A program made the position numbers and the translations under genes. Below the pieces are notes generated by a model. It made no database searches and had not been told where the DNA came from. It saw only the letters and a list, made by a program, of their open reading frames with translations. From contig CAIYDK010000105.1 in NCBI GenBank assembly GCA_903924955.1, forward strand, positions 1-43,814: 43,814 nucleotides of DNA, in the 5' to 3' direction. Within the stretch, counting starts at the first letter, position 1; the number at the start of each line of letters is the position of its first letter. Origin of the DNA: an uncultured beta proteobacterium. GTDB taxonomy: Bacteria > Pseudomonadota > Gammaproteobacteria > Burkholderiales > Burkholderiaceae_C. Positions 183-40,348 of the stretch are shown here, in pieces.

Positions 183-187
183 GATCT

Positions 188-240
188 GCTCCTATATTTA
201 TAGCGTGTTACGCAATATTAACGGGGGCTACAGCCCAATA
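188..240 (-). repeat. Interspersed palindromic repeat, copy 1 (purA/phosphoribosyltransferase gap)
   Basis: Read on the minus strand this has the core TAGCCCCCGTTAATATTGCG followed by a hairpin CTATA-AA-TATAG at 192-203. The same order (CCCCCGT core, about 20 nt, then a GCTAT/ATAGC hairpin) occurs at 24992-25045, 27359-27402, 36769-36824 and 39117-39173. Here it fills most of the purA-phosphoribosyltransferase gap, and its hairpin end supplies the ribosome binding site of the downstream gene. Confidence 0.7.
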
Positions 241-264
241 TCTCTTAAAGCTTTGCGTCTAACC

Positions 265-23262: not shown

Positions 23263-23880
23263 TTATGGAGCCTGCGGAAGCGGAGCACTGCCATTGGATT
23301 TGTCGAGTAGGCGCTTTTCCCGGTCAAGTCGGCGTTGCTCGGCAGCGCGTTGTTTTTCGGCGTAAGCCTCCCTGTTGCTTTCCATCGATGCGGCATCCAA
23401 CCCGGATGCCGTTTTTTTGACTGCAGCAGCAGGCGCTTCCCTTTTCCCCTGACTTTCGTGGTTTAGTACTTTCTCATTCAGTGTTTTTTGCCGCTGTTCT
23501 AGCGTCGCACCATCATGAGAAGTTTGCACTTCTGACTCCCGCTGCGCCCTTTCAGTCGCTTTGTCCTGGCTTCGCTGAAGTTGCTCGGCTCCTTTCTGAT
23601 GCCTATCCACTTCGTTGAGGCGGGCTTCTTGACGTTTCAAGTCGGCCAGCATCTCCCGACGCCGTACACCCACTTCATTCTGACAATCGGTGACGGCAAA
23701 GCGGGTCGAACAGGCCGCGTCCTGTGCTGAAAGTTCAGCCAGTTTCTCCTTACGCACGGCATCAATGCGCTGGCGCTGCACATCGACATTTCCAACTGCC
23801 GGTTCGCCGATTGCCTCAGCCTGGGCTCTCACTGAAAACAGGGCCCAAGCCAGCACAATTAATAGCCTCGCCTTGCTCAT
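23263..23880 (-). CDS. Exported coiled-coil protein of unknown function
   Basis: 205 residues. A signal peptide (about 1-22, MSKARLLIVLAWALFSVRAQA) is followed by an almost wholly charged helical protein rich in Gln, Glu, Arg, Lys and Ala, probably a coiled coil. Two cysteines lie in DAACSTRFAVTDCQNEV (about 54-67), which could form a disulfide. I do not recognise a named domain, although Comamonadaceae have similar periplasmic proteins next to zapE as far as I recall. It overlaps zapE by 4 nt (ATGA), so it is likely expressed with it. Its stop abuts the PP2C gene stop with no spacer. Confidence 0.75.
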   Translation of the reverse strand: MSKARLLIVLAWALFSVRAQAEAIGEPAVGNVDVQRQRIDAVRKEKLAELSAQDAACSTRFAVTDCQNEVGVRRREMLADLKRQEARLNEVDRHQKGAEQLQRSQDKATERAQRESEVQTSHDGATLEQRQKTLNEKVLNHESQGKREAPAAAVKKTASGLDAASMESNREAYAEKQRAAEQRRLDREKRLLDKSNGSAPLPQAP

Positions 23881-24974
23881 GTCAATCCAGTGTCGACCAT
23901 GCGCCGCTCCAGCGACAAGTATTCCTGCGTCTGCATCTCACTCAGGCGCGACACGGTTCGTGGAAATTCATGCGCCATCGGGCCTTCGGTATACAACTCG
24001 GCCGGCACAACGGCCGCCGACATCACCAGCTTCACCCTGCGGTCATACAGCACGTCAATCAGCCAGGTAAAGCGACGCGCCTCAGAGGCCATGCGCAGGG
24101 GCATATGCGGCACATCGCTCAAAAATACGGTGTGAAACAGCGAGGCGATTTCCAGGTAGTCATTCTGTGATCGCGGTCCGCCGCACAGCGTCTTGAAGTC
24201 AAACCAGACCATACCACCGGCCTTTCTCTTGGCGAGAATTTTCCGGGATTCAATGTGCAGCACCGGGTCTTCGTCATGCGTTTCTTCCAGCACGTTGAAA
24301 GCCTGCTCCATTGCCGCATCGGCCTGCGGTCCGTTGGGAACATGGTAGAGCGTCAACGCCTCCAGTGTTCGCCGGCGATAGTCAGTCCCGTTGTCAACGT
24401 TGATGACTTCCAGGCGCGCGTTGAGCAAGGCAATAGCCGGCAGAATACGATCGCGGTGCAAACCTCCGGGGTACAGGCCGTCGGGCTTGAAGTTGGAGGT
24501 CGTGACAAAGCCCACGCCGTTGTCAAACAGCGCTGTCAACAATCGGTGCAGGATCATTGCATCGGTAATGTCAGCCACATGGAATTCATCAAAACAAATC
24601 AAGCGAAAGCGCTTGGACATACGCTTGGCCAACTCATCCAGCGGATTGACTGTGCCCTGCAGGTCCGACAGCTCACGGTGCACCTCGCGCATGAACTCAT
24701 GAAAGTGCAGCCGCGTCTTGCGCTTGAGGGGGACTGCGTTGTAAAAGCAATCCATGAGAAAGCTCTTGCCCCGCCCGACTCCGCCAAACATATAAACGCC
24801 CCGTGGAATGTCGGGGCGGTTGATCAGCTTTTTCAACGCGTTGGAGCGCTTCTCTTTGTACGCTGTCCACTCTTGCGCGCAGCGCTCCAGCTCCTCGACC
24901 GCACGCAACTGAGCCGGGTCAGCCGTATAACCCCGGATGGCCAGTTCGGCTTCGTAGATCTGCTTGACAGTCAA
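23877..24974 (-). CDS. zapE: Cell division ATPase ZapE (AFG1-like)
   Basis: 365 residues, AFG1/ZapE family AAA-type ATPase. It has Walker A FGGVGRGKSFLMDCFY (about 63-78), Walker B RLICFDEFHVADITDAMILHRL, a sensor segment GVGFVTTSNFKPDGLYPGGLHRDRILPAI, and the C-terminal AFG1 segment FTWLIDVLYDRRVKLVMSAA. ZapE associates with the divisome and affects FtsZ rings under stress in E. coli; the mitochondrial homolog acts in respiratory complex quality control. Location after lpdA in the odh cluster is typical for Comamonadaceae. Confidence 0.93.
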   Translation of the reverse strand: MTVKQIYEAELAIRGYTADPAQLRAVEELERCAQEWTAYKEKRSNALKKLINRPDIPRGVYMFGGVGRGKSFLMDCFYNAVPLKRKTRLHFHEFMREVHRELSDLQGTVNPLDELAKRMSKRFRLICFDEFHVADITDAMILHRLLTALFDNGVGFVTTSNFKPDGLYPGGLHRDRILPAIALLNARLEVINVDNGTDYRRRTLEALTLYHVPNGPQADAAMEQAFNVLEETHDEDPVLHIESRKILAKRKAGGMVWFDFKTLCGGPRSQNDYLEIASLFHTVFLSDVPHMPLRMASEARRFTWLIDVLYDRRVKLVMSAAVVPAELYTEGPMAHEFPRTVSRLSEMQTQEYLSLERRMVDTGLT

Positions 24975-24991
24975 GATGGCAACTCCAGGTT

Positions 24992-25045
24992 GCTATAGTT
25001 TAAATAGCTGCCAGCGCCCGATTGACGGGGGCTAGCAGCTATTTT
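24992..25045 (-). repeat. Interspersed palindromic repeat, copy 2 (lpdA/zapE gap)
   Basis: Occupies most of the 83-bp gap between lpdA and zapE. On the minus strand it reads AAAATAGCTGCTAGCCCCCGT, then a CAGCTATTT...ATAGC hairpin (GCTAT at 24992-24996 pairing with ATAGC at 25004-25008). A longer inverted repeat, AAATAGCTGCCAGC at 25002-25015 with GCTAGCAGCTATTT at 25031-25044 (one mismatch), is specific to this copy. Same family as the copies at 188, 27359, 36769 and 39117. Confidence 0.72.
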
Positions 25046-25057
25046 CATCCACAATAC

Positions 25058-26485
25058 TCAAAAGTTCAATGTGCGCTTGTCAACCGCCAGAGCAGCTTCC
25101 TTGGTGGCTTCGCTCAAGGATGGGTGCGCATGGCAAATGCGGGCGATATCCTCGGCACTGGCCTTGAACTCCATAGCCACAACCGCCTCGGAAATCAGCT
25201 CGCTAGCTTGCGGACCCACGATGTGCACACCCAGGATCTCGTCCGTCGTGGCATCTGCCAAGAACTTGACGAAGCCGGTGGTATCGCCCAGCGCGCGAGC
25301 GCGGCCGTTGGCAAGAAACGGGAATGAGCCTGCCTTGTAGGCTACGCCATCGGCCTTGAGTTGCTGCTCGGTGCGACCGACCCACGCAATCTCGGGGCTG
25401 GTGTAGATCACCCAAGGAATGGTATTGAAGTTGACGTGGCCGTGCTGGCCGGCAATGCGCTCGGCCACCGCAACGCCCTCTTCCTCCGCCTTGTGTGCCA
25501 GCATGGGGCCGCGCACCACGTCGCCCACCGCCCAGACGCCAGCCAAATTGGTCTTGCAATCGCCGTCCACCACAATGGCCCCACGCTCGTCCAGCGCTAG
25601 GCCCACCGCCTCTGCATTCAAACCAATGGTGTTGGGTACACGGCCAATCGAGATGATCAGCTTGTCCACGTCCAGCGCCAGTGCTTCGCCCTTGGCGCTC
25701 GTGTAGGCAATGGATACGCCTTTCTTGCTGGACTTGATGTCGCCCACGGTCACGCCCAACTCGATCTTGAGACCCTGCTTGGTGAATGCCTTGTGAGCCT
25801 CTTTGGCGACCTGCTCGTCCACCGCGCCCAGGAAAGTGGGCAAACCTTCGAGAATCGTGACTTCCGCACCCAGACGGCGCCAGACCGAGCCCATTTCCAG
25901 GCCGATGACGCCCGAGCCGATCAAGCCCAGCTTCTTGGGAACCGCGCCAATACGCAAGGCACCGTCGTTGGACAGGATGCGCTCTTCGTCAAACGGCGTG
26001 CCCGGCAAGGCGCGAGCGTTAGAACCGGTAGCGATGATGATCTGCTTACCCAGAATGGATTCTTCAGTCGCACCTGCCACGTTGATAACGTAGCCGCCGT
26101 CTGCTGCCTTGACGAACGAACCCCGCCCGTGAAAGAACGCGATCTTGTTCTTCTTCAACAGGTACTGGATACCGTCGTTATTCTGCTTGACGACCATGTC
26201 CTTACGGGCAACCATCTTGGCCACGTCCATGCTCACGCCCTTGACCGCAATGCCGTGCTCGGCAAAGTGGTGGTTGGCGTGGTCAAAGTGCTCGCTCGAT
26301 TGCAGCAGAGCCTTGGAGGGAATGCATCCGACATTGGTACAGGTGCCTCCGAGCGCGGGGCCGCCCTTTTCGTTCTTCCACTCGTCGATACAGGCCACTT
26401 CAAAGCCCAGTTGGGCGGCGCGAATGGCGGCGATATAGCCACCGGGGCCACCACCAATAACGATCACATCAAATTGTTTACTCAT
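25058..26485 (-). CDS. lpdA: Dihydrolipoyl dehydrogenase (E3)
   Basis: 475 residues, FAD-dependent E3 component shared by 2-oxo acid dehydrogenases. It has the FAD-binding [17 protein letters not shown] (about 11-27), redox-active disulfide Cys49/Cys54 in [13 protein letters not shown], the NAD-binding [21 protein letters not shown], and the C-terminal catalytic His in [16 protein letters not shown]. It is the third gene of the sucA-sucB-lpdA operon, so its main partner here is 2-oxoglutarate dehydrogenase. The start at 26485 has AGGAAA upstream. It is separated from sucB by a 121-bp gap holding a large inverted repeat. Confidence 0.97.
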
Positions 26486-27908: not shown

Positions 27909-30800
27909 TTACTTGCTCAGGACAAAGCCCTTGAGCTTGCCAAATGCGCCTTCAACCAATGATTTTTGCTGCTCCAGGTGCAGGTGCGAGTAGCCCACTG
28001 CGGGCGAAGCCGATGCCGCGCGTCCCGAGTAGCCCAGACGCTGACCGTCAGCCATGTTTTCGTGGATGTTGTGTTGGATGAAGAACCAGGCGCCCTGATT
28101 CTGTGGCTCATCCTGGCACCACACAATGTCTGTTGCATTCGGATATTTCTTCAACTCCGTCGCGAACGCCTTGTGCGGGAATGGATACAACTGTTCAACA
28201 CGGATGATGGCCACGTCTTCAATGCCTTTTTCCTCGCGCTTCTTGACCAGGTCGTAGTACACCTTGCCGGAGCAAGCCACCAGGCGCTTGACCTTGTCAG
28301 CCTTGAGTTCCTTGTTCTCTGGAATGACGGTCTGAAAGCCGCCCTTGATGAACTCGGACAGGGGTGAAGTTGCGTCCTTATTACGCAGCAACGATTTCGG
28401 TGTGAAGATAATCAGCGGCTTGCGCAGGTTACGAACCATCTGACGACGCAACACGTGGAAAATCTGGCTCGCGGTCGTGGGCTGCACGATCTGCATATTG
28501 GCATCTGCCGCCAACTGCATGAAGCGCTCCAGTCGCGCCGAACTGTGCTCGGGTCCCTGGCCTTCATAGCCGTGCGGCAACATCAAGGTAATACCATTGA
28601 CGCGACCCCATTTCACCTCGCCAGAGGCAATAAACTGGTCAATCACCACCTGCGCGCCGTTGGCGAAATCGCCAAACTGGGCTTCCCAGACCACTAAGGT
28701 GTTCGGGTCATTTGAAGCGTAGCCGTACTCATAGGCCAGAACGGCCTCTTCGGACAGGATCGAATCAATAACAACAAAAGGTGCCTGATTCTCGGCCACG
28801 TTTTCCAACGGCACATAGATACCGGCATCCCACTTTTCGCGGGCTTGATCGTGAATCACGGCATGGCGGTGGGTGAAGGTGCCGCGTCCGCTGTCCTCGC
28901 CAGACAATCGAACCGGGTAACCGCTGGCCACTAAAGTGGCAAAGGCCATGCTCTCGCCCATGCCCCAGTCCACATTCGCGTCTCCACGTCCCATGGCGGC
29001 ACGGTCATCGTAGACTTTCTTCACCAACGAGTGGGGCGTTACGCTGGCGGGCAGCACAGTCAGCTTTTCCACCAGCCGTTTCCACTCTGTCAATGGAATG
29101 GCGGTATCGCCCGCGTCGGTCCATTTCTTGCCCAGGAAGGGTGACCAATCCACAGCGTACTTGCTCTTGAAGTTGGTCAGCACAGGGTCTACTGTGTGAA
29201 TGCCAGCATCCATGGCAGCGCGGTAGGCCTTAACCATATCCTCGCCCAGCGTCTCACCCAGGCCTTGTGCTGACAACTTGTCGGCGTACAACTTGCGTGT
29301 GCCGGGATGGGCTGCAATCTTCTTGTACATCAGCGGCTGCGTCAGCATGGGCGTGTCTTGTTCGTTGTGGCCCAGCTTGCGAAAGCACGTGATGTCCACC
29401 ACCACGTCCTGGCGGAATTCCAGGCGGAACTCCAGCGCCAGTTGCGTGGCCAGAACCACCGCTTCGGGGTCGTCACCGTTGACGTGCAGCACAGGAGACT
29501 CGACCATCTTCACGATGTCCGTACAGAACGCACTCGAGCGCATATCGCGCGGGTCGGACGTTGTGAAACCAATCTGGTTATTGATGATGATGTGCACCGT
29601 ACCACCGGTTGCGTAGCCGCGGGTTTGTGCCAGACACAGGGTTTCCTGGTTGACGCCCTGGCCACCAAAGGCGGCGTCGCCATGCACCAGCACCGGCAGC
29701 ACCTGATTGCCCAGCGTATCGCCACGACGGTCCATGCGCGCACGCACCGACCCCTCCACCACCGGATTAACAATTTCCAAGTGCGAGGGGTTGAACGCCA
29801 AGGACAGATGAACCGGTCCACCGGAGGTCGATACATCGGAACTGAAGCCCTGGTGGTACTTCACGTCACCTGCGGGCAAATCTTCGGGCGCGGTGTGATC
29901 AAACTCGGCAAATAGGTCGCCCGGCATCTTGCCCAGGGTGTTGACCAGCACGTTCAGTCGCCCGCGGTGGGCCATGCCGATGACGATCTCCTGCACGCCC
30001 TTGGCGCCAGCCTGCTGGATCAATTCGTCCATAGAGGCAATAAAGCTCTCTCCGCCTTCGAGCGAGAAACGTTTCTGCCCCACGTACTTCGTATGCAGGA
30101 AGCGCTCCAGGCCTTCAGCTGCAGTCAAACGGTCCAGAATATGTTTCTTCTTTTCAGCAGTGAAATGCGGCTTGCTGCGAACCGACTCCAGTTTCTGCTG
30201 CCACCAGCGCTTCTGGTTCTGATCCGTGGTGTACATGAACTCGGCACCAAGAGTGCCGCAGTATGTCTCGCGCAAGGCATTCATCAGGTCGCGCAAACTC
30301 ATGGTATCGCGGCCAAAGAACGTGTTGCTGGTATTGAACACGGTTTCCTGGTCTGCATCGCTGAAACCGTAAAACGACAGTTCAAGCTCAGGAATATTGT
30401 CACGCTCGCGGCGCTTGAGCGGGTCCAGATCAGCCCAGCGGGCACCAACGTTGCGGTAGGCCGCAATCAATTGCTGCACAGCCGTGCGCTTACGGCCCAT
30501 CTCCGAGTCCGCGCCCGTTGCCATAACCACCCGAGTGCCACCTTGCTTGGCTCGCTCGGCGAAGGCATTGATCACAGGCAGGTGGGGAACGTCGCGTGCG
30601 TCGCTACCATCAACGGCGGGAACATTTTGCAGCGCGTCGAAATACTCACGCCACGTGTCAGTCACGCTTCCGGGATTGGCAAGGTAGTTTTCGTACATCT
30701 CTTCGACGTATGGCGCATTGCCACCGAAAAGGTACGTATTGCTGGCGTAGGCCTGGTAGACCGACGCGGGGCTCGTCTTCTGCGACGTAATTTCACTCAT
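27909..30800 (-). CDS. sucA: 2-oxoglutarate dehydrogenase E1
   Basis: 963 residues, normal length, thiamine-diphosphate decarboxylase component of the TCA-cycle complex. It has the N-terminal E2-binding segment NTYLFGGNAPYVEEMYENYLANPGSV in spirit (about 19-44), EIVIGMAHRGRLNVL, and the ThDP/Mg motif HGDAAFGGQGVNQE...IINNQIGFTTSDPRD. The transketolase-like central domain has LSGEDSGRGTFTHRHAVIHDQ and the C-terminus ends in CQDEPQNQGAWFFI. First gene of sucA-sucB-lpdA. The ATG at 30800 has GGAGG about 10 nt upstream, and a small palindrome lies just before that. Confidence 0.97.
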   Translation of the reverse strand: MSEITSQKTSPASVYQAYASNTYLFGGNAPYVEEMYENYLANPGSVTDTWREYFDALQNVPAVDGSDARDVPHLPVINAFAERAKQGGTRVVMATGADSEMGRKRTAVQQLIAAYRNVGARWADLDPLKRRERDNIPELELSFYGFSDADQETVFNTSNTFFGRDTMSLRDLMNALRETYCGTLGAEFMYTTDQNQKRWWQQKLESVRSKPHFTAEKKKHILDRLTAAEGLERFLHTKYVGQKRFSLEGGESFIASMDELIQQAGAKGVQEIVIGMAHRGRLNVLVNTLGKMPGDLFAEFDHTAPEDLPAGDVKYHQGFSSDVSTSGGPVHLSLAFNPSHLEIVNPVVEGSVRARMDRRGDTLGNQVLPVLVHGDAAFGGQGVNQETLCLAQTRGYATGGTVHIIINNQIGFTTSDPRDMRSSAFCTDIVKMVESPVLHVNGDDPEAVVLATQLALEFRLEFRQDVVVDITCFRKLGHNEQDTPMLTQPLMYKKIAAHPGTRKLYADKLSAQGLGETLGEDMVKAYRAAMDAGIHTVDPVLTNFKSKYAVDWSPFLGKKWTDAGDTAIPLTEWKRLVEKLTVLPASVTPHSLVKKVYDDRAAMGRGDANVDWGMGESMAFATLVASGYPVRLSGEDSGRGTFTHRHAVIHDQAREKWDAGIYVPLENVAENQAPFVVIDSILSEEAVLAYEYGYASNDPNTLVVWEAQFGDFANGAQVVIDQFIASGEVKWGRVNGITLMLPHGYEGQGPEHSSARLERFMQLAADANMQIVQPTTASQIFHVLRRQMVRNLRKPLIIFTPKSLLRNKDATSPLSEFIKGGFQTVIPENKELKADKVKRLVACSGKVYYDLVKKREEKGIEDVAIIRVEQLYPFPHKAFATELKKYPNATDIVWCQDEPQNQGAWFFIQHNIHENMADGQRLGYSGRAASASPAVGYSHLHLEQQKSLVEGAFGKLKGFVLSK

Positions 30801-31152
30801 ATTCCGCTGACCTCCGTTTCCCTTAGGGAAACATTAGCTGGTTAAGCTGTTTAAATTAACCTTCCGCGGCACGGCTGAACCGTTTAGCGGATGCGACTGT
30901 GGCGGGGGAAGGGCCTAGTTACAAATCCAATTGTGCCACCGATTGACATCAAGAAAATTTCAAGAAAATCGCTAACACGAGCGAAGTCTCACGGAGCGCC
31001 CTTACACATGGCTTGCGGCGCAAACAAATAGGGTGTATTTCCGTCGTGTTCATCCGTGAATGTATTCCCTGGCGGTGAAAAATGTGCAGCTTCGCGTGCA
31101 ATATGCTTAAATAGACCATAGCCGCTTCACCTCCTATGGGCGCCCTACTTCC
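30801..31152. other. 352-bp divergent intergenic region, sucA / mini rod protein
   Basis: No gene is supported here. It must hold the promoters of the sucA operon (minus) and of the mini rod protein gene (plus), but no strong -10/-35 pair was found on either strand. Seen in it are the sucA-leader palindrome (30816-30832), a tandem 11-bp near-duplicate TCAAGAAAATT/TCAAGAAAATC (30949-30970), and TGTATTTCC and TGTATTCCC words spaced 27 bp apart (31034 and 31061). No flagellar sigma-28 or sigma-54 consensus was found before the flagellar-like gene. Confidence 0.5.
30816..30832. promoter_or_regulatory. Palindrome in the sucA 5' leader
   Basis: GTTTCCC-TTA-GGGAAAC is a perfect 7-bp inverted repeat with a 3-nt loop. 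It lies directly upstream of the GGAGG ribosome binding site of sucA. It may be an RNA hairpin influencing translation or a protein-binding site; no regulator can be named from sequence. Confidence 0.4.
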
Positions 31153-35987: not shown

Positions 35988-38900
35988 CTACCCGACCCAG
36001 CGTCTTGCGTTGTGCCAGAGTTGCATCCACGGGCTGTGCGCATTCGCATCCAGCCCATTCCAACTCATCTGGATATTGCGAAACACCCGTTCCGGGTGCG
36101 GCATCATGGCGGTGAAGCGGCCGTCCGCGGTCGTGACCGCCGTCAAACCACCAGGGCTGCCATTCGGATTGAACGGGTAAGCCTCCGTCGCATTACCGGC
36201 ATTGTCGGTAAAGCGCATCGCAGCGATGGCTTTGTCCGCATTGCCACGGTATTTGAAGTTGGCATAGCCCTCGCCGTGCGCCACGGCAATGGGCATGCGG
36301 CTACCCGCCATACCGGCAAAGAACAGCGATGGCGACTCCAGCACCTCGACCATCGAGAATCGCGCCTCAAAGCGCTCGCTCTGGTTGGTGGTGAAACGCG
36401 GCCAGTCCTGCGCACCCGGAATAATGTCGGCCAGTTCGGCAAACATCTGGCAGCCATTGCACACGCCCAGACCAAAGGTGTCGGCACGACCGAAAAACGC
36501 CTTGAACTGGTCGGAAAGTGCTGAATTGAAGGTGATGGAGCGGGCCCAACCAATGCCGGCGCCCAAAGTGTCGCCATAGCTGAAGCCTCCGCAGGCGACC
36601 ACGCCCTGAAAGTCCGCCAACTTGGCGCGACCGGTTTGCAGATCGGTCATGTGGACGTCAAAGGCTTCAAAACCCGCTTCGGTGAAGGCGTAGGCCATTT
36701 CCACATGGGAGTTGACACCCTGCTCGCGCAATACGGCGACCTTAGGGCGACTGGTGAGAATCGAAGGCGCTATTATTTTAGTAGCTGCTTGCGCATAATC
36801 CACGGGGGCTTTCGCCTGATTTGGCAGGTAAATATGCAGGCCCGGGTCAATCGCAGCACCGGCCGCAGTATGTTCCGAGTCGGCGCAAGCCGGGTTGTCA
36901 CGTTGTTGGCAAATCTTCCAGCTCACGGCGTCCCAAACCTGGTGCAAATCAACCAATGGCGCCTTGAAGATGGCCTTGGCATCACGCCAGACTTGCAACT
37001 CGTTCTTACCGGCATCGATTTCGCTTGAGGCCGGGCGGGTTTTGCCGACAAAGTGGCTAAACGCGGACAGACCATGCTCACGCAGCGTCTGCATCACCTC
37101 GCTACGCTGCGCCGTGCGCACCTGCAGCACGACGCCCAGCTCTTCGTTGAACAGTGCCTTGAGCGTCAGCTCTTCGCGGCGGGCACCCACCTGCCCCGCC
37201 CAGTTCTTGCTGTCGCCCACATCCATGCGGCTATCGGTGATGCCATCGCCCTCCGTGACGAGCATGTCCACGTTCAGGGCCACGCCCACCCGCCCGGCAA
37301 AGGCCATCTCGGCAACAGCAGCCAGCAGGCCACCGTCGCTGCGGTCGTGGTAAGCCAATATCTTGCCCTGGCCCCGCAAAGTGTTGACGGCATTGACCAA
37401 ATTGACCAGGTCTTTGGCGTTGTCCAGGTCGGGCACCGCGTCACCGACTTGATCCAGCGTTTGCGCCAGGATGCTGGTGGCCATGCGGTTCTTGCCATGA
37501 CCCAAATCCACGAGCACCAAAGTGGTGTCTTCCTGTGCATTCAACTGAGGCGTCAGCGTGCCGCGCACATCGGCCAGCGTGGCGAAAGCAGTAACGATCA
37601 GGGAGACTGGGGATGTCACCTTCTTGTCGGAGCCATCGACCTTCCACTGCGTGCGCATGGACAGCGAATCCTTGCCCACGGGGATGGAGATGCCCAAGGC
37701 AGGGCACAACTCCAGCCCGACTGCTTTGACTGTGGCGTACAGCGCGGCATCCTCGCCCGGTTCGCCGCAGGCCGCCATCCAGTTGGCCGACAGTTTGACG
37801 CGCGGCAAATCGATGGGGGCGGCCAGCAGGTTGGTGATGGCTTCGGCCACCGCCATGCGGCCCGAAGCCGGTGCGTCCAACGCCGCCATGGGTGTGCGTT
37901 CGCCCATGGACATGGCTTCGCCGGCAAAACCCTTGAAATCAGCCAGCGTCACGGCGCAATCCGCCACGGGCACCTGCCAGGGGCCCACCATCTGGTCGCG
38001 GTGCGTCAAGCCACCCACCGTGCGGTCGCCAATGGTGATCAGAAAACGCTTGGAGGCTACGGTGGGGTGCGCCAGCACATCGATAACCGCTTTTTGCAGA
38101 TCCACGCCGGTCAGATCCAGCGGCTTGAACGCGCGCGACACGGTTTTCACATCGCGGTGCATTTTGGGTGGCTTGCCTAGCAAGACGTTCATCGGCATAT
38201 TGACTGGTGACTCGGCTCCCTCGTCCACCAGTTGCAAATCGCGCTCATCGGTGGCCACTCCGATCACAGCAAACGGGCAACGCTCACGTTCGCACAATGC
38301 CGAGAACTGCTGCAGCGACTCGGGCGCAATGGCCAGCACGTAGCGTTCCTGGCTTTCGTTACACCAGATTTCCTTGGGCGCCATGCCGGATTCTTCCAGC
38401 TTGATGGCTCGCAAATCAAAGCGGGCACCGCGCCCGGCGTCGTTGGTCAACTCGGGAAATGCGTTGCTCAAACCACCGGCACCCACGTCGTGAATGGCCA
38501 GAATCGGGTTGCTGCCAGCCTGAATCCAGCACTGGTTGATAACCTCTTGTGCCCGGCGCTCGATCTCGGGGTTGCCACGCTGTACCGAGTCAAAGTCCAG
38601 ATGGGCCGCGTTGGCACCTGTAGCCATGGAGCTGGCCGCGCTGCCGCCCATGCCGATGCGCATGCCAGGGCCGCCCAGCTGAATCAGCAGGCTGCCAGCA
38701 GGAAATTCAATCTTGTGGGTCTGGGTGGCGTCGATCACGCCCAGGCCACCGGCAATCATGATGGGCTTGTGGTAGCCGCGCTGCACGGTGTCCACATTGC
38801 TGGCAACCGATTGCTCGTATTCGCGGAAGTAGCCCAGCAGGTTGGGTCGGCCAAACTCGTTGTTGAACGCGGCACCACCCAGCGGGCCCTCGGTCATGAT

Positions 38901-40013
38901 TTGCAACGGGCTGGCGATGTGCTCGGGCTTGCCAAAGTCACCGCCCCAGAGTTTGGAGACGGTGAAGCCTGTCAAACCGGCCTTGGGCTTGGAGCCCCGG
39001 CCCGTGGCGCCTTCATCGCGGATCTCGCCGCCCGCGCCAGTGGACGCGCCAGGGAATGGCGAGATGGCCGTGGGGTGGTTGTGGGTTTCCACCTTCATCA
39101 GGATGTGGTTCGTTTCACTATGCTTTTCATAGCTGGCTGCGCATATTCCACGGGGGCTAGAGGCGGATTTGGCGATAAACCTTTCCACCAGAACGCCTTC
39201 CATGACCGAGGCGTTGTCCGAGTACGCCACCAGCATGTGCTGTGGGTTAGTCTGGTGCGTATGGCGGATCATGCCGAACATGCTCTGGTCCTGCGCCACG
39301 CCGTCTATCGTGAACTGGGCATTGAAGATCTTGTGGCGGCAGTGCTCGCTGTTGGCCTGGGCAAACATCATCAACTCCACGTCGGTCGGGTTGCGCCCCA
39401 GGTTGGTGAAGGCGTTGACCAGGTAGTCAATTTCGTCGCCGGCCAGGGCCAGACCAAAACGCGTGTTGGCTTCCACCAATGCGGCCTTACCGCCCTGAAG
39501 CACATCCACATGGTCCATTGGCGCGGCTTGCAGGGCACTGAACAGGGCCAGAGCCTGCGCGCGCTCCAGCATGGCGCTCTCAGTCATGCGGTCATGCAAC
39601 AGGGCTGCGACTTGCTCCAGTTGTTCGGTACTCAGCGTGGGCTTGCTCAGCAGTGCGCTCTTGAGGGTCAGGCGGTACTCCACCAGCCGTTCGATGCGGT
39701 GCACGGCCAGGCCACAGTTGTGCGCAATATCCGTGGCTTTGGATGCCCATGGAGAAACAGTGCCAAGACGCGGTGACACCACAATCAACGGACCATCCGT
39801 AGGGCCTGCGTATGGGTCGCCGTAGGTCAAAAGGGCGGCCAGTTGGGCGCTGAGGGCTGAGTCGGGAGCAACATCGCTTGCCACCAGGTGCACAAAACGC
39901 GCGCAGAGGCCTGTAACCTTGTCGTGGATGCCCTGCAAAGCAGGCAAAAGTTGTTGAATACGGAAGCTGCTCAGGGCATTGCTGCCCTCGAATTGGGTGA
40001 TATGCAGAGTCAC
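35988..40013 (-). CDS. purL: Phosphoribosylformylglycinamidine synthase
   Basis: 1341 residues from the GTG at 40013 (family N-terminus [24 protein letters not shown]); a TTG at 40049 is the alternative. It converts FGAR to FGAM with ATP and glutamine in purine synthesis. The large two-part synthetase has [37 protein letters not shown] and [14 protein letters not shown]. It is followed by a C-terminal glutaminase domain (from about 1088) with the nucleophile Cys in [22 protein letters not shown] and [17 protein letters not shown]. coli PurL has 1295 residues; part of the extra length is two stretches encoded by interspersed repeats (about residues 281-299 and 1064-1082). Confidence 0.96.
36769..36824 (-). 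repeat. Interspersed palindromic repeat, copy 4 (inside purL, before glutaminase domain)
   Basis: Minus strand: GCCAAATCAGGCGAAAGCCC, then CCGTGGATTATGCGCAAGC and a GCTACTAAAATAATAGC hairpin. It shares most of its bases with copy 5 (39117-39173), including the GCCAAATC end. The purL frame reads it as [20 protein letters not shown], in the linker just before the glutaminase domain ([14 protein letters not shown]). Confidence 0.8.
39117..39173 (-). repeat. Interspersed palindromic repeat, copy 5 (inside purL, N-terminal half)
   Basis: Minus strand: GCCAAATCCGCCTCTAGCCC, then CCGTGGAATATGCGCAGCC and a hairpin CTATG-AAAAG-CATAG (39118-39132). Here purL reads it as [19 protein letters not shown], in a loop between VLVERFI and the conserved [13 protein letters not shown]. 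The reading frame within the repeat is shifted by one relative to copy 4, so the same DNA gives an unrelated peptide. Confidence 0.82.
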
Positions 40014-40348
40014 AGAGGTGGCCTGGAAAAGTGGGCTGTTTCCATTCAATACAAAAATGGAAATGGAGGGGTAAACGTCAAGCCGCCAATTTTACCCGCG
40101 GAGCTTGCACCGCTCTTGCCCTGGACTTGTTCCATGCGAAAGCACTGCCAAGGGGTTGATATTGGGGCCCTGTCACAGTGAAACCTGTGCTGCTTAGCTG
40201 GCAACACGGCAACACGGCGTGTATGGTGAGGTTTGATTGGGTTTTGCGGCAATACATGGGATAAAGGGTAAATGAAGTTGACTAAGATCAAAAGGTTCGT
40301 TTCCCACGCAGCCACACTCGACCATTTGTCTGTTCTACTGAATGCTGC
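40014..40348. other. Divergent intergenic region, purL / chemoreceptor
   Basis: 335 bp without a supported gene. It holds the candidate purL promoter (40089-40094) and a tandem duplicate GCAACACG-GCAACACG at 40201-40216 followed by GCGTGT, which can pair with ACACG(G). No sigma-28 type promoter (TAAA...GCCGATAA) was found for the chemoreceptor gene, and its ATG at 40349 lacks a clear ribosome binding site. No PurR-type operator was recognised. Confidence 0.45.
40089..40094 (-). promoter_or_regulatory. Candidate -10 element for purL
   Basis: Minus strand GCGGGTAAAATTGG, with -10-like TAAAAT, 39 nt before the TTG and 75 nt before the GTG candidate start of purL. It is the third occurrence of the CGGGTAAAATYG-like word in the window (others near 2835 and 31507). 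No matching -35 was found. Confidence 0.42.

Follow-up and report, generated by a model that had tools for sequence, protein, structure and literature searches.

A dispersed repeat of about 55 nucleotides inside purL and other conserved genes of a probable Comamonadaceae bacterium, with modest evidence for a DNA-level signal at its GCTA-N9-TAGC dyad

The window analysed here, the whole 43,814-nt stretch of contig CAIYDK010000105.1 from an uncultured beta proteobacterium (assembly GCA_903924955.1), contains a purL gene (phosphoribosylformylglycinamidine synthase) with two copies of a dispersed repeat of about 55 nt; the repeat recurs within and between genes of its own genome and in relatives, and its genic copies appear, as far as the sequences tell, to be read as protein in open frames of conserved genes. 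Evidence of modest size points to a DNA-level signal centred on the dyad GCTA-N9-TAGC of the repeat. These observations are best accommodated, tentatively and with a little less than an even chance, by an old dispersed repeat of the Comamonadaceae that is held in place by a DNA constraint on the dyad, and whose translation is tolerated. The family placement is suggested by the closest named PurL relatives of the window protein, two Rhodoferax records with 84% identity.

The purL open frame spans 35988..40049 on the minus strand (identified as an open reading frame, by Pfam and by the homologue 1t3t), and its Pfam architecture comprises FGAR-AT_N, a linker, PurM_N-like, AIRS_C and GATase_5. Both repeat copies lie on the plus strand, opposite purL: the site 1 copy at 39116..39171 (profile score 45.8 bits, E 1.5e-13) is read antisense in phase 0, and the site 2 copy at 36767..36823 (51.3 bits, E 2.9e-15) antisense in phase 2; aligned over 56 nt (39118-39173 and 36770-36825), they are 79% identical, and the report of a first-pass annotation that purL holds two repeat copies in different frames is thus borne out. 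The terminal hairpin described there corresponds to a dyad of the form GCTA(T)-N7-(A)TAGC, present as GCTAT-N7-GTAGC around the GCTA-N9-TAGC core in the site 2 copy (36769..36785, plus strand), while in the site 1 copy (39117..39133, plus strand) its first base is A instead of G. The residue numbers given for both inserts are shifted by some 12 positions, a shift that probably stems from the upstream TTG at which the listed frame begins; the true purL start is probably downstream of this codon, and the related loci L158 and L163 have a stop at query residue 9.

Two further window copies, at about 189-244 and 24993-25048, were delimited by the profile as a diverged plus-strand copy outside the listed open frames (187..242; 25.2 bits, E 4.1e-7; nearest frame 265-1674) and an intergenic plus-strand copy (24990..25046; 49.2 bits, E 1.4e-14) between the frames at 23877-24974 and 25058-26485. 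A core pattern allowing up to 3 mismatches recovered three of the four window copies, where shuffled sequences predict none; in the whole genome assembly (4.55 Mb over 627 contigs, with 91.5% completeness and 5.3% contamination) it gave 249 matches, 134 forward and 115 reverse, against 0 for the reversed-pattern control, in agreement with the earlier view of an interspersed repeat; many further copies lie within and between genes. Chance similarity, or ancient protein sequence and nothing else, is effectively refuted by these counts together with profile matches in two frames and copies between genes, even though the site 1 peptide is common to many Comamonadaceae as protein sequence.

Among the 61 genomes of the genus, own genome included, 38 have at least one core-pattern match (maximum 352); across the family, a broader pattern found matches in 42 of 141 genera (62 of 250 genomes), and the control gave 0. 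Profile searches of 400 kb in each of three congeners yielded 68, 63 and 72 copies, from which about 600-700 copies per genome can be extrapolated for those congeners. Strand use in the three is balanced (34:34, 31:32 and 36:36), and gaps shorter than 200 nt between copies occur once, once and not at all. Among the matches listed, the congeners G034, G007 and G059 prefer the core variant CGGGCGCT and the own genome CGGGGGCT, a hint of lineage-specific subfamilies.

The gene context was determined for 76 distinct own-genome copies, a sample that leans towards good matches because it was drawn from the first-listed pattern matches. Of these, 41 lie within an open frame that is 200 codons or longer and extends 40 or more codons beyond the copy in both directions, and three frames account for 38 of the 41 (antisense phase 2 in 19, sense phase 0 in 13, antisense phase 0 in 6; other frames in 3). 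Thirty of the 39 distinct host frames have a Pfam match; some of the remaining nine may be spurious. By hand count, 24 of the 76 copies are flanked on both sides by residues matched to Pfam or the PDB, in hosts that include PurL (two copies), UvrA, a dihydrolipoyl acyltransferase, an acetyl-CoA-synthetase-like enzyme, a CusB-like fusion protein, YhhN, a DUF3418 protein, an FtsJ/TlyA-like methyltransferase, MiaA, TruB, LolD (named from its PDB homologue), a ComEC-like protein (two copies), a sulfite/nitrite reductase, ornithine carbamoyltransferase (OTCase), an amine oxidase, a DUF3025 protein, LysE, LtaE, a SpoU methylase, DapF (matched via the PDB), a hydantoinase and a uracil methyltransferase. 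The two copies in the ComEC-like gene (L027:1352-3028; Pfam Competence and DUF4131) are in opposite orientations and in two frames. In the sense frame the element would form hydrophobic N-terminal segments, for example those of lipoprotein-like signal peptides (L016, minus-strand match 1500; L125, minus-strand match 1202), and at L146 (minus-strand match 1192) it extends the N terminus of a frame that we take to resemble a CysN-type GTPase. Upstream of ltaE in the own genome (L116:1236), the element end GAGGCCAATATG apparently provides a GAGG resembling a ribosome-binding site ahead of the start codon, and a similar sequence is found there in most aligned congeners.

The copies have stable positions among congeners. 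Between G064 and G065 (400 kb; mean identity 95.0% in aligned blocks), 100 of 130 matches are shared, counting both directions; the remainder comprises 26 matches that had no placement and 4 that differ in score only, at sites of the same length. Between G064 and G007 (82.4% identity), 95 of 127 strong matches are shared, 3 are unique and 29 unplaced, "shared" meaning any profile match above 8 bits at the corresponding place; 95 of the 98 placeable strong matches are therefore shared. Since positions are common to congeners at 95% and 82% DNA identity, the spread of copies is old; the ongoing spread proposed in the first-pass annotation is not supported, and recent mobility was rejected, no presence/absence difference being found among placed matches at 95% identity.

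The purL sites were followed through an alignment of 80 loci of named records, 49 congener loci (several partial) and the window protein, scanned at E up to 0.01 with a profile of 31 own-genome copies from which both purL copies were excluded. Of the sequences that could be scored, 29 of 109 carry the element at site 1 and 32 of 126 at site 2; no profile matches beyond these two sites occurred in the 130 purL coding sequences. The alignment confirms that both copies occupy linkers of variable length, and distant relatives lack both peptides, contrary to the possibility that all relatives might have them. At site 2 the median length from anchor to anchor is 30 aa with the element and 22 aa without, a gain of 8 aa compared with about 18 expected from an insert. 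At site 1 the medians are 22 and 22 aa (range 14-36 without the element); as a caveat, the site 1 comparison cannot demonstrate an absent gain, because the group below threshold includes congeners with a peptide resembling a diverged copy. In more distant relatives site 1 often measures 14-18 aa, and the Salmonella PurL is 7 aa shorter here. The claim that the element adds peptide thus stands in part for site 2; at site 1 the comparison speaks neither clearly for it nor clearly against it.

Other repeats occupy purL linkers in relatives. Site 2 holds a TCATTCCCGCG-type palindrome in L041 (57 matches in that genome, control 0) and a GTTCG..CTGAGC.TGTCGAAG-type repeat in L045 (111 matches, control 0); the latter type is also found in L164 (24 genome matches, control 0) at a third purL site near residue 613, where L186, L189, L190 and others carry a GPSQA..GGSEPHAVGSVGA-type repeat. 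At this third site, L189, L190, L186 and L187 have a repeat of 78-87 nt read in frame, in tandem in L189 and L190. Of eight purL inserts sought in 1.8 Mb of retrieved DNA, those of the third-site repeat recurred, with 11 matches for the L189 type and 8 for the L187 type (four control stretches, 0); the six others did not recur in the 1.8 Mb, and whole-genome patterns later confirmed two more types. The inserts of L038 (PLGEGW-like) and L185 are unconfirmed as repeats, and no other confirmed repeat family was found at site 1 among the aligned PurL relatives. With site 2 or the third site taken up in relatives by three further repeat families, the purL linkers provide a ready test bed.

The case for a constraint on the DNA relies on a substitution test in which 48 loci, picked via G007 only, were compared between G064 and G065; plain pairwise comparisons were not relied on, because they carry a selection bias similar to that of a purL set picked by element score. 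High-information positions of the motif differ in 55 of 1095 cases (5.0%), low-information positions of the element in 59 of 568 (10.4%; Fisher P 8e-5), and flank positions in about 7%. The dyad and its loop (positions 2-18) diverge less than the flanks, both at A/T (9/488, 1.8%, vs. 196/3475, 5.6%; P 1e-4) and at G/C positions (11/328, 3.4%, vs. 419/5636, 7.4%; P 0.004), and to a similar degree in 22 non-genic (2.7%) and 26 genic loci (2.3%). The dyad is nearly invariant among copies, and in congeners no part of the element diverges less than the positions equivalent to the site 2 dyad. Among windows along purL and truB the element falls in the lowest 6-8% for synonymous and the highest 2-7% for amino-acid change, a result not relied on here, the purL set having been picked by element score. 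Copies are spaced more regularly than random (G064, P 0.025; G007, P 0.003), and GCTA-N9-TAGC occurs 39 and 39 times, of which 4 and 2 occurrences are left once elements are masked.

In the interpretation we favour, a constraint on the DNA itself, centred on GCTA-N9-TAGC and most likely due to recognition of the dyad by a candidate dimeric DNA-binding protein, would keep copies in place. The element would be neutral to strand and reading frame; a genic copy would be read in one of its three stop-free frames and survive where the peptide is tolerated, for example in the purL linkers, with translation probably a by-product. Copies may have originated by insertion with compensating loss, by short-patch replacement by another copy, or by evolution in place. 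Short-patch double illegitimate recombination is a possible mechanism, on which no paper was found in the open-access literature.

Several observations weigh against this interpretation. The element as a whole is no less divergent than its flanks (P 0.72), and its middle (positions 19-44) is more divergent; part of the pattern could also come from a dead repeat in which mutation rates are uneven. The P values for dyad and motif are optimistic, because the segments were drawn after the per-position counts and the motif was defined on the same three genomes, and the two spacing tests are not independent, because G064 and G007 share most positions. The near absence of the dyad outside full elements is odd if it is simply a binding site; no protein that binds it turned up, and no search for one was made. 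Finally, the pattern matches nowhere in 23 of the 61 genus genomes and only 1-3 times in 9 others, close to the 0-2 of the reversed pattern; these match-poor genomes may carry variants that the pattern misses.

The main rival, a serious contender to which we give a sizeable minority of the probability, is a REP/MITE-like mobile element (repetitive extragenic palindrome; miniature inverted-repeat transposable element) that spread in an ancestral transposition burst and is now immobile and decaying, its genic copies being tolerated relics comparable to Rickettsia palindromic elements (RPEs). Copies occur as full-length units without a continuum (68 and 72 matches at E<0.01 grow to only 77 and 77 at E<1), as expected of such relics, and the 8 aa gained by carriers at purL site 2 fit an insertion. 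At the ltaE site the element is present in the own genome, L203 and L211, and among the congeners listed most others lack it; in L205 and L229 other repeats seem to occupy the place. Relative to PDB homologues, the net length around the element is increased in LtaE (+29 aa), the TlyA-like protein (+23), DapF (+16) and PurL site 1 (+7); this speaks for insertion, whereas the values for LolD (0), TruB (+4), OTCase (+3) and MiaA (-3) speak against it, and SpoU had no PDB match at the cut-off. LolD has the same length across the site in all 29 close congeners compared and in all 20 others (of these 20, 14 are without pattern match, 4 have 1-3 matches and 2 are outside the genus pattern search), and TruB aligns gap-free at the site in 29 relatives and 20 others.

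The genome G079, with no match at E<0.01 in 400 kb, provides a broader comparison: 10 of 19 G064 hosts and 11 of 19 G007 hosts show no length change relative to it, and one host per set is longer by 27 or 25 aa. The comparison sets aside copies without a spanning frame (30 and 30 in the G064 and G007 sets), without a homologue in the block (13 and 15) or with an alignment that does not span the site (1 and 5); most loci are common to both sets, and in a few cases the frame may run along the wrong strand of a real gene. The unchanged hosts count against a mobile relic, with a weight reduced by the finding that the equivalent G079 windows outscore controls in the same phase (mean z 2.6 for n = 11 and 2.4 for n = 12), as expected of decayed copies. 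Because of this excess, decayed remnants, prior similarity and plain homology are inseparable in G079, and comparing carriers with this genome as a test of replacement versus shared insertion and decay does not separate the two. A transposase link is likewise missing: by hand count, the Y1 transposase family PF01797 is present in 21 of the 23 genus genomes without matches and in 34 of the 38 with them and does not track the element, and in the 3.3 kb around the only Y1_Tnp of the own genome the best element match has an E value of 0.16. Mobilisation by REP-associated tyrosine transposases (RAYTs) was therefore rejected, and the lower divergence of the dyad than of its flanks is a further argument against a decaying relic.

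A more far-reaching version of the constraint is that in Comamonadaceae hundreds of DNA-level sites, serving to organise the chromosome, to take up DNA or in some other process that reads sequence, have been written into conserved genes with protein length largely unchanged; we consider it unlikely, if far from negligible. If true, a DNA function would have shaped segments of essential proteins in three frames. The specific proposal of an uptake signal, whose copies arise in place by substitution and are enriched through biased uptake and recombination, is improbable. The DNA uptake sequences (DUS) of Neisseriaceae and uptake signal sequences (USS) of Pasteurellaceae are strand-symmetric, lie in core genes and are evenly spaced, and the present element resembles them in its strand symmetry, its regular spacing and its location in conserved genes in a few frames; the many hosts of unchanged length and the partly similar G079 windows also fit. 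However, about 55 nt is far above the length of known uptake motifs, intermediate-scoring copies are few, and the short core is not enriched by itself, as the masking of full elements showed. An RNA hairpin acting in transcripts is very improbable: its GCTAT/ATAGC arms are able to pair and some copies lie directly upstream of start codons, yet both strands are used equally, neither proposed stem shows base-pair covariation (paired counts are at or near the expectation for independent columns), and no element in the window matches Rfam at the gathering threshold; an RNA structure was rejected on the last two grounds. Elsewhere in the window, a sucA RNA motif (RF01070, 81 bits) at 30805-30896 on the minus strand lies directly upstream of a 963-aa open frame at 27909-30800.

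Overall, the first-pass interpretation is partly supported. The results indicate that, outside Rickettsia, conserved genes commonly contain in-frame repeats in part of a large bacterial family, and the orthologous sites with carriers and non-carriers form a dense natural case set for asking whether a DNA-level signal can reshape protein sequence.

Comparisons with known repeats place the element among small intragenic repeats. Like the Rickettsia palindromic elements, with their 105-146 bp, long stem-loops and terminal inverted repeats (PMC2229807), it is small and occurs within and between genes and in frame in conserved proteins, here between matched residues in 24 of the 76 sampled copies; it differs by its length of about 55 nt, its dyad of 4-5 bp, and often little or no gain in length. 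GTAG/CGTC REPs and RAYT-linked REPs are also short, of high copy number and in some cases within genes (PMC3733652), whereas the present element has no Y1 link, arms that do not covary, and about half of the copies sampled within long open frames; the main text of that survey mentions none of the names Rhodoferax, Polaromonas, Acidovorax, Burkholderiales and Comamonadaceae. Among the open-access papers listed, none was seen to describe this element in Comamonadaceae, and the beta-proteobacterial repeat element (BRE) was the sole betaproteobacterial repeat family found; it has been counted in Polaromonas, Rhodoferax, Acidovorax and Delftia, has some copies in coding sequences, and in Bordetella measures 75-91 bp at full length with 69% GC and is often in tandem (PMC3110155). 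The present element is likewise betaproteobacterial and partly within coding sequences; its length of about 55 nt and the near absence of copies less than 200 nt apart set it apart from BRE by description, not by sequence, and on the same basis the purL repeat near residue 613 resembles BRE in length and tandem habit. Published surveys of intragenic repeats (PMC2229807, PMC3733652) imply that small repeats inside genes were already known; what seems new here is the repeat family itself, how densely it populates genes, how often its hosts show no change in length, and the dyad signal.

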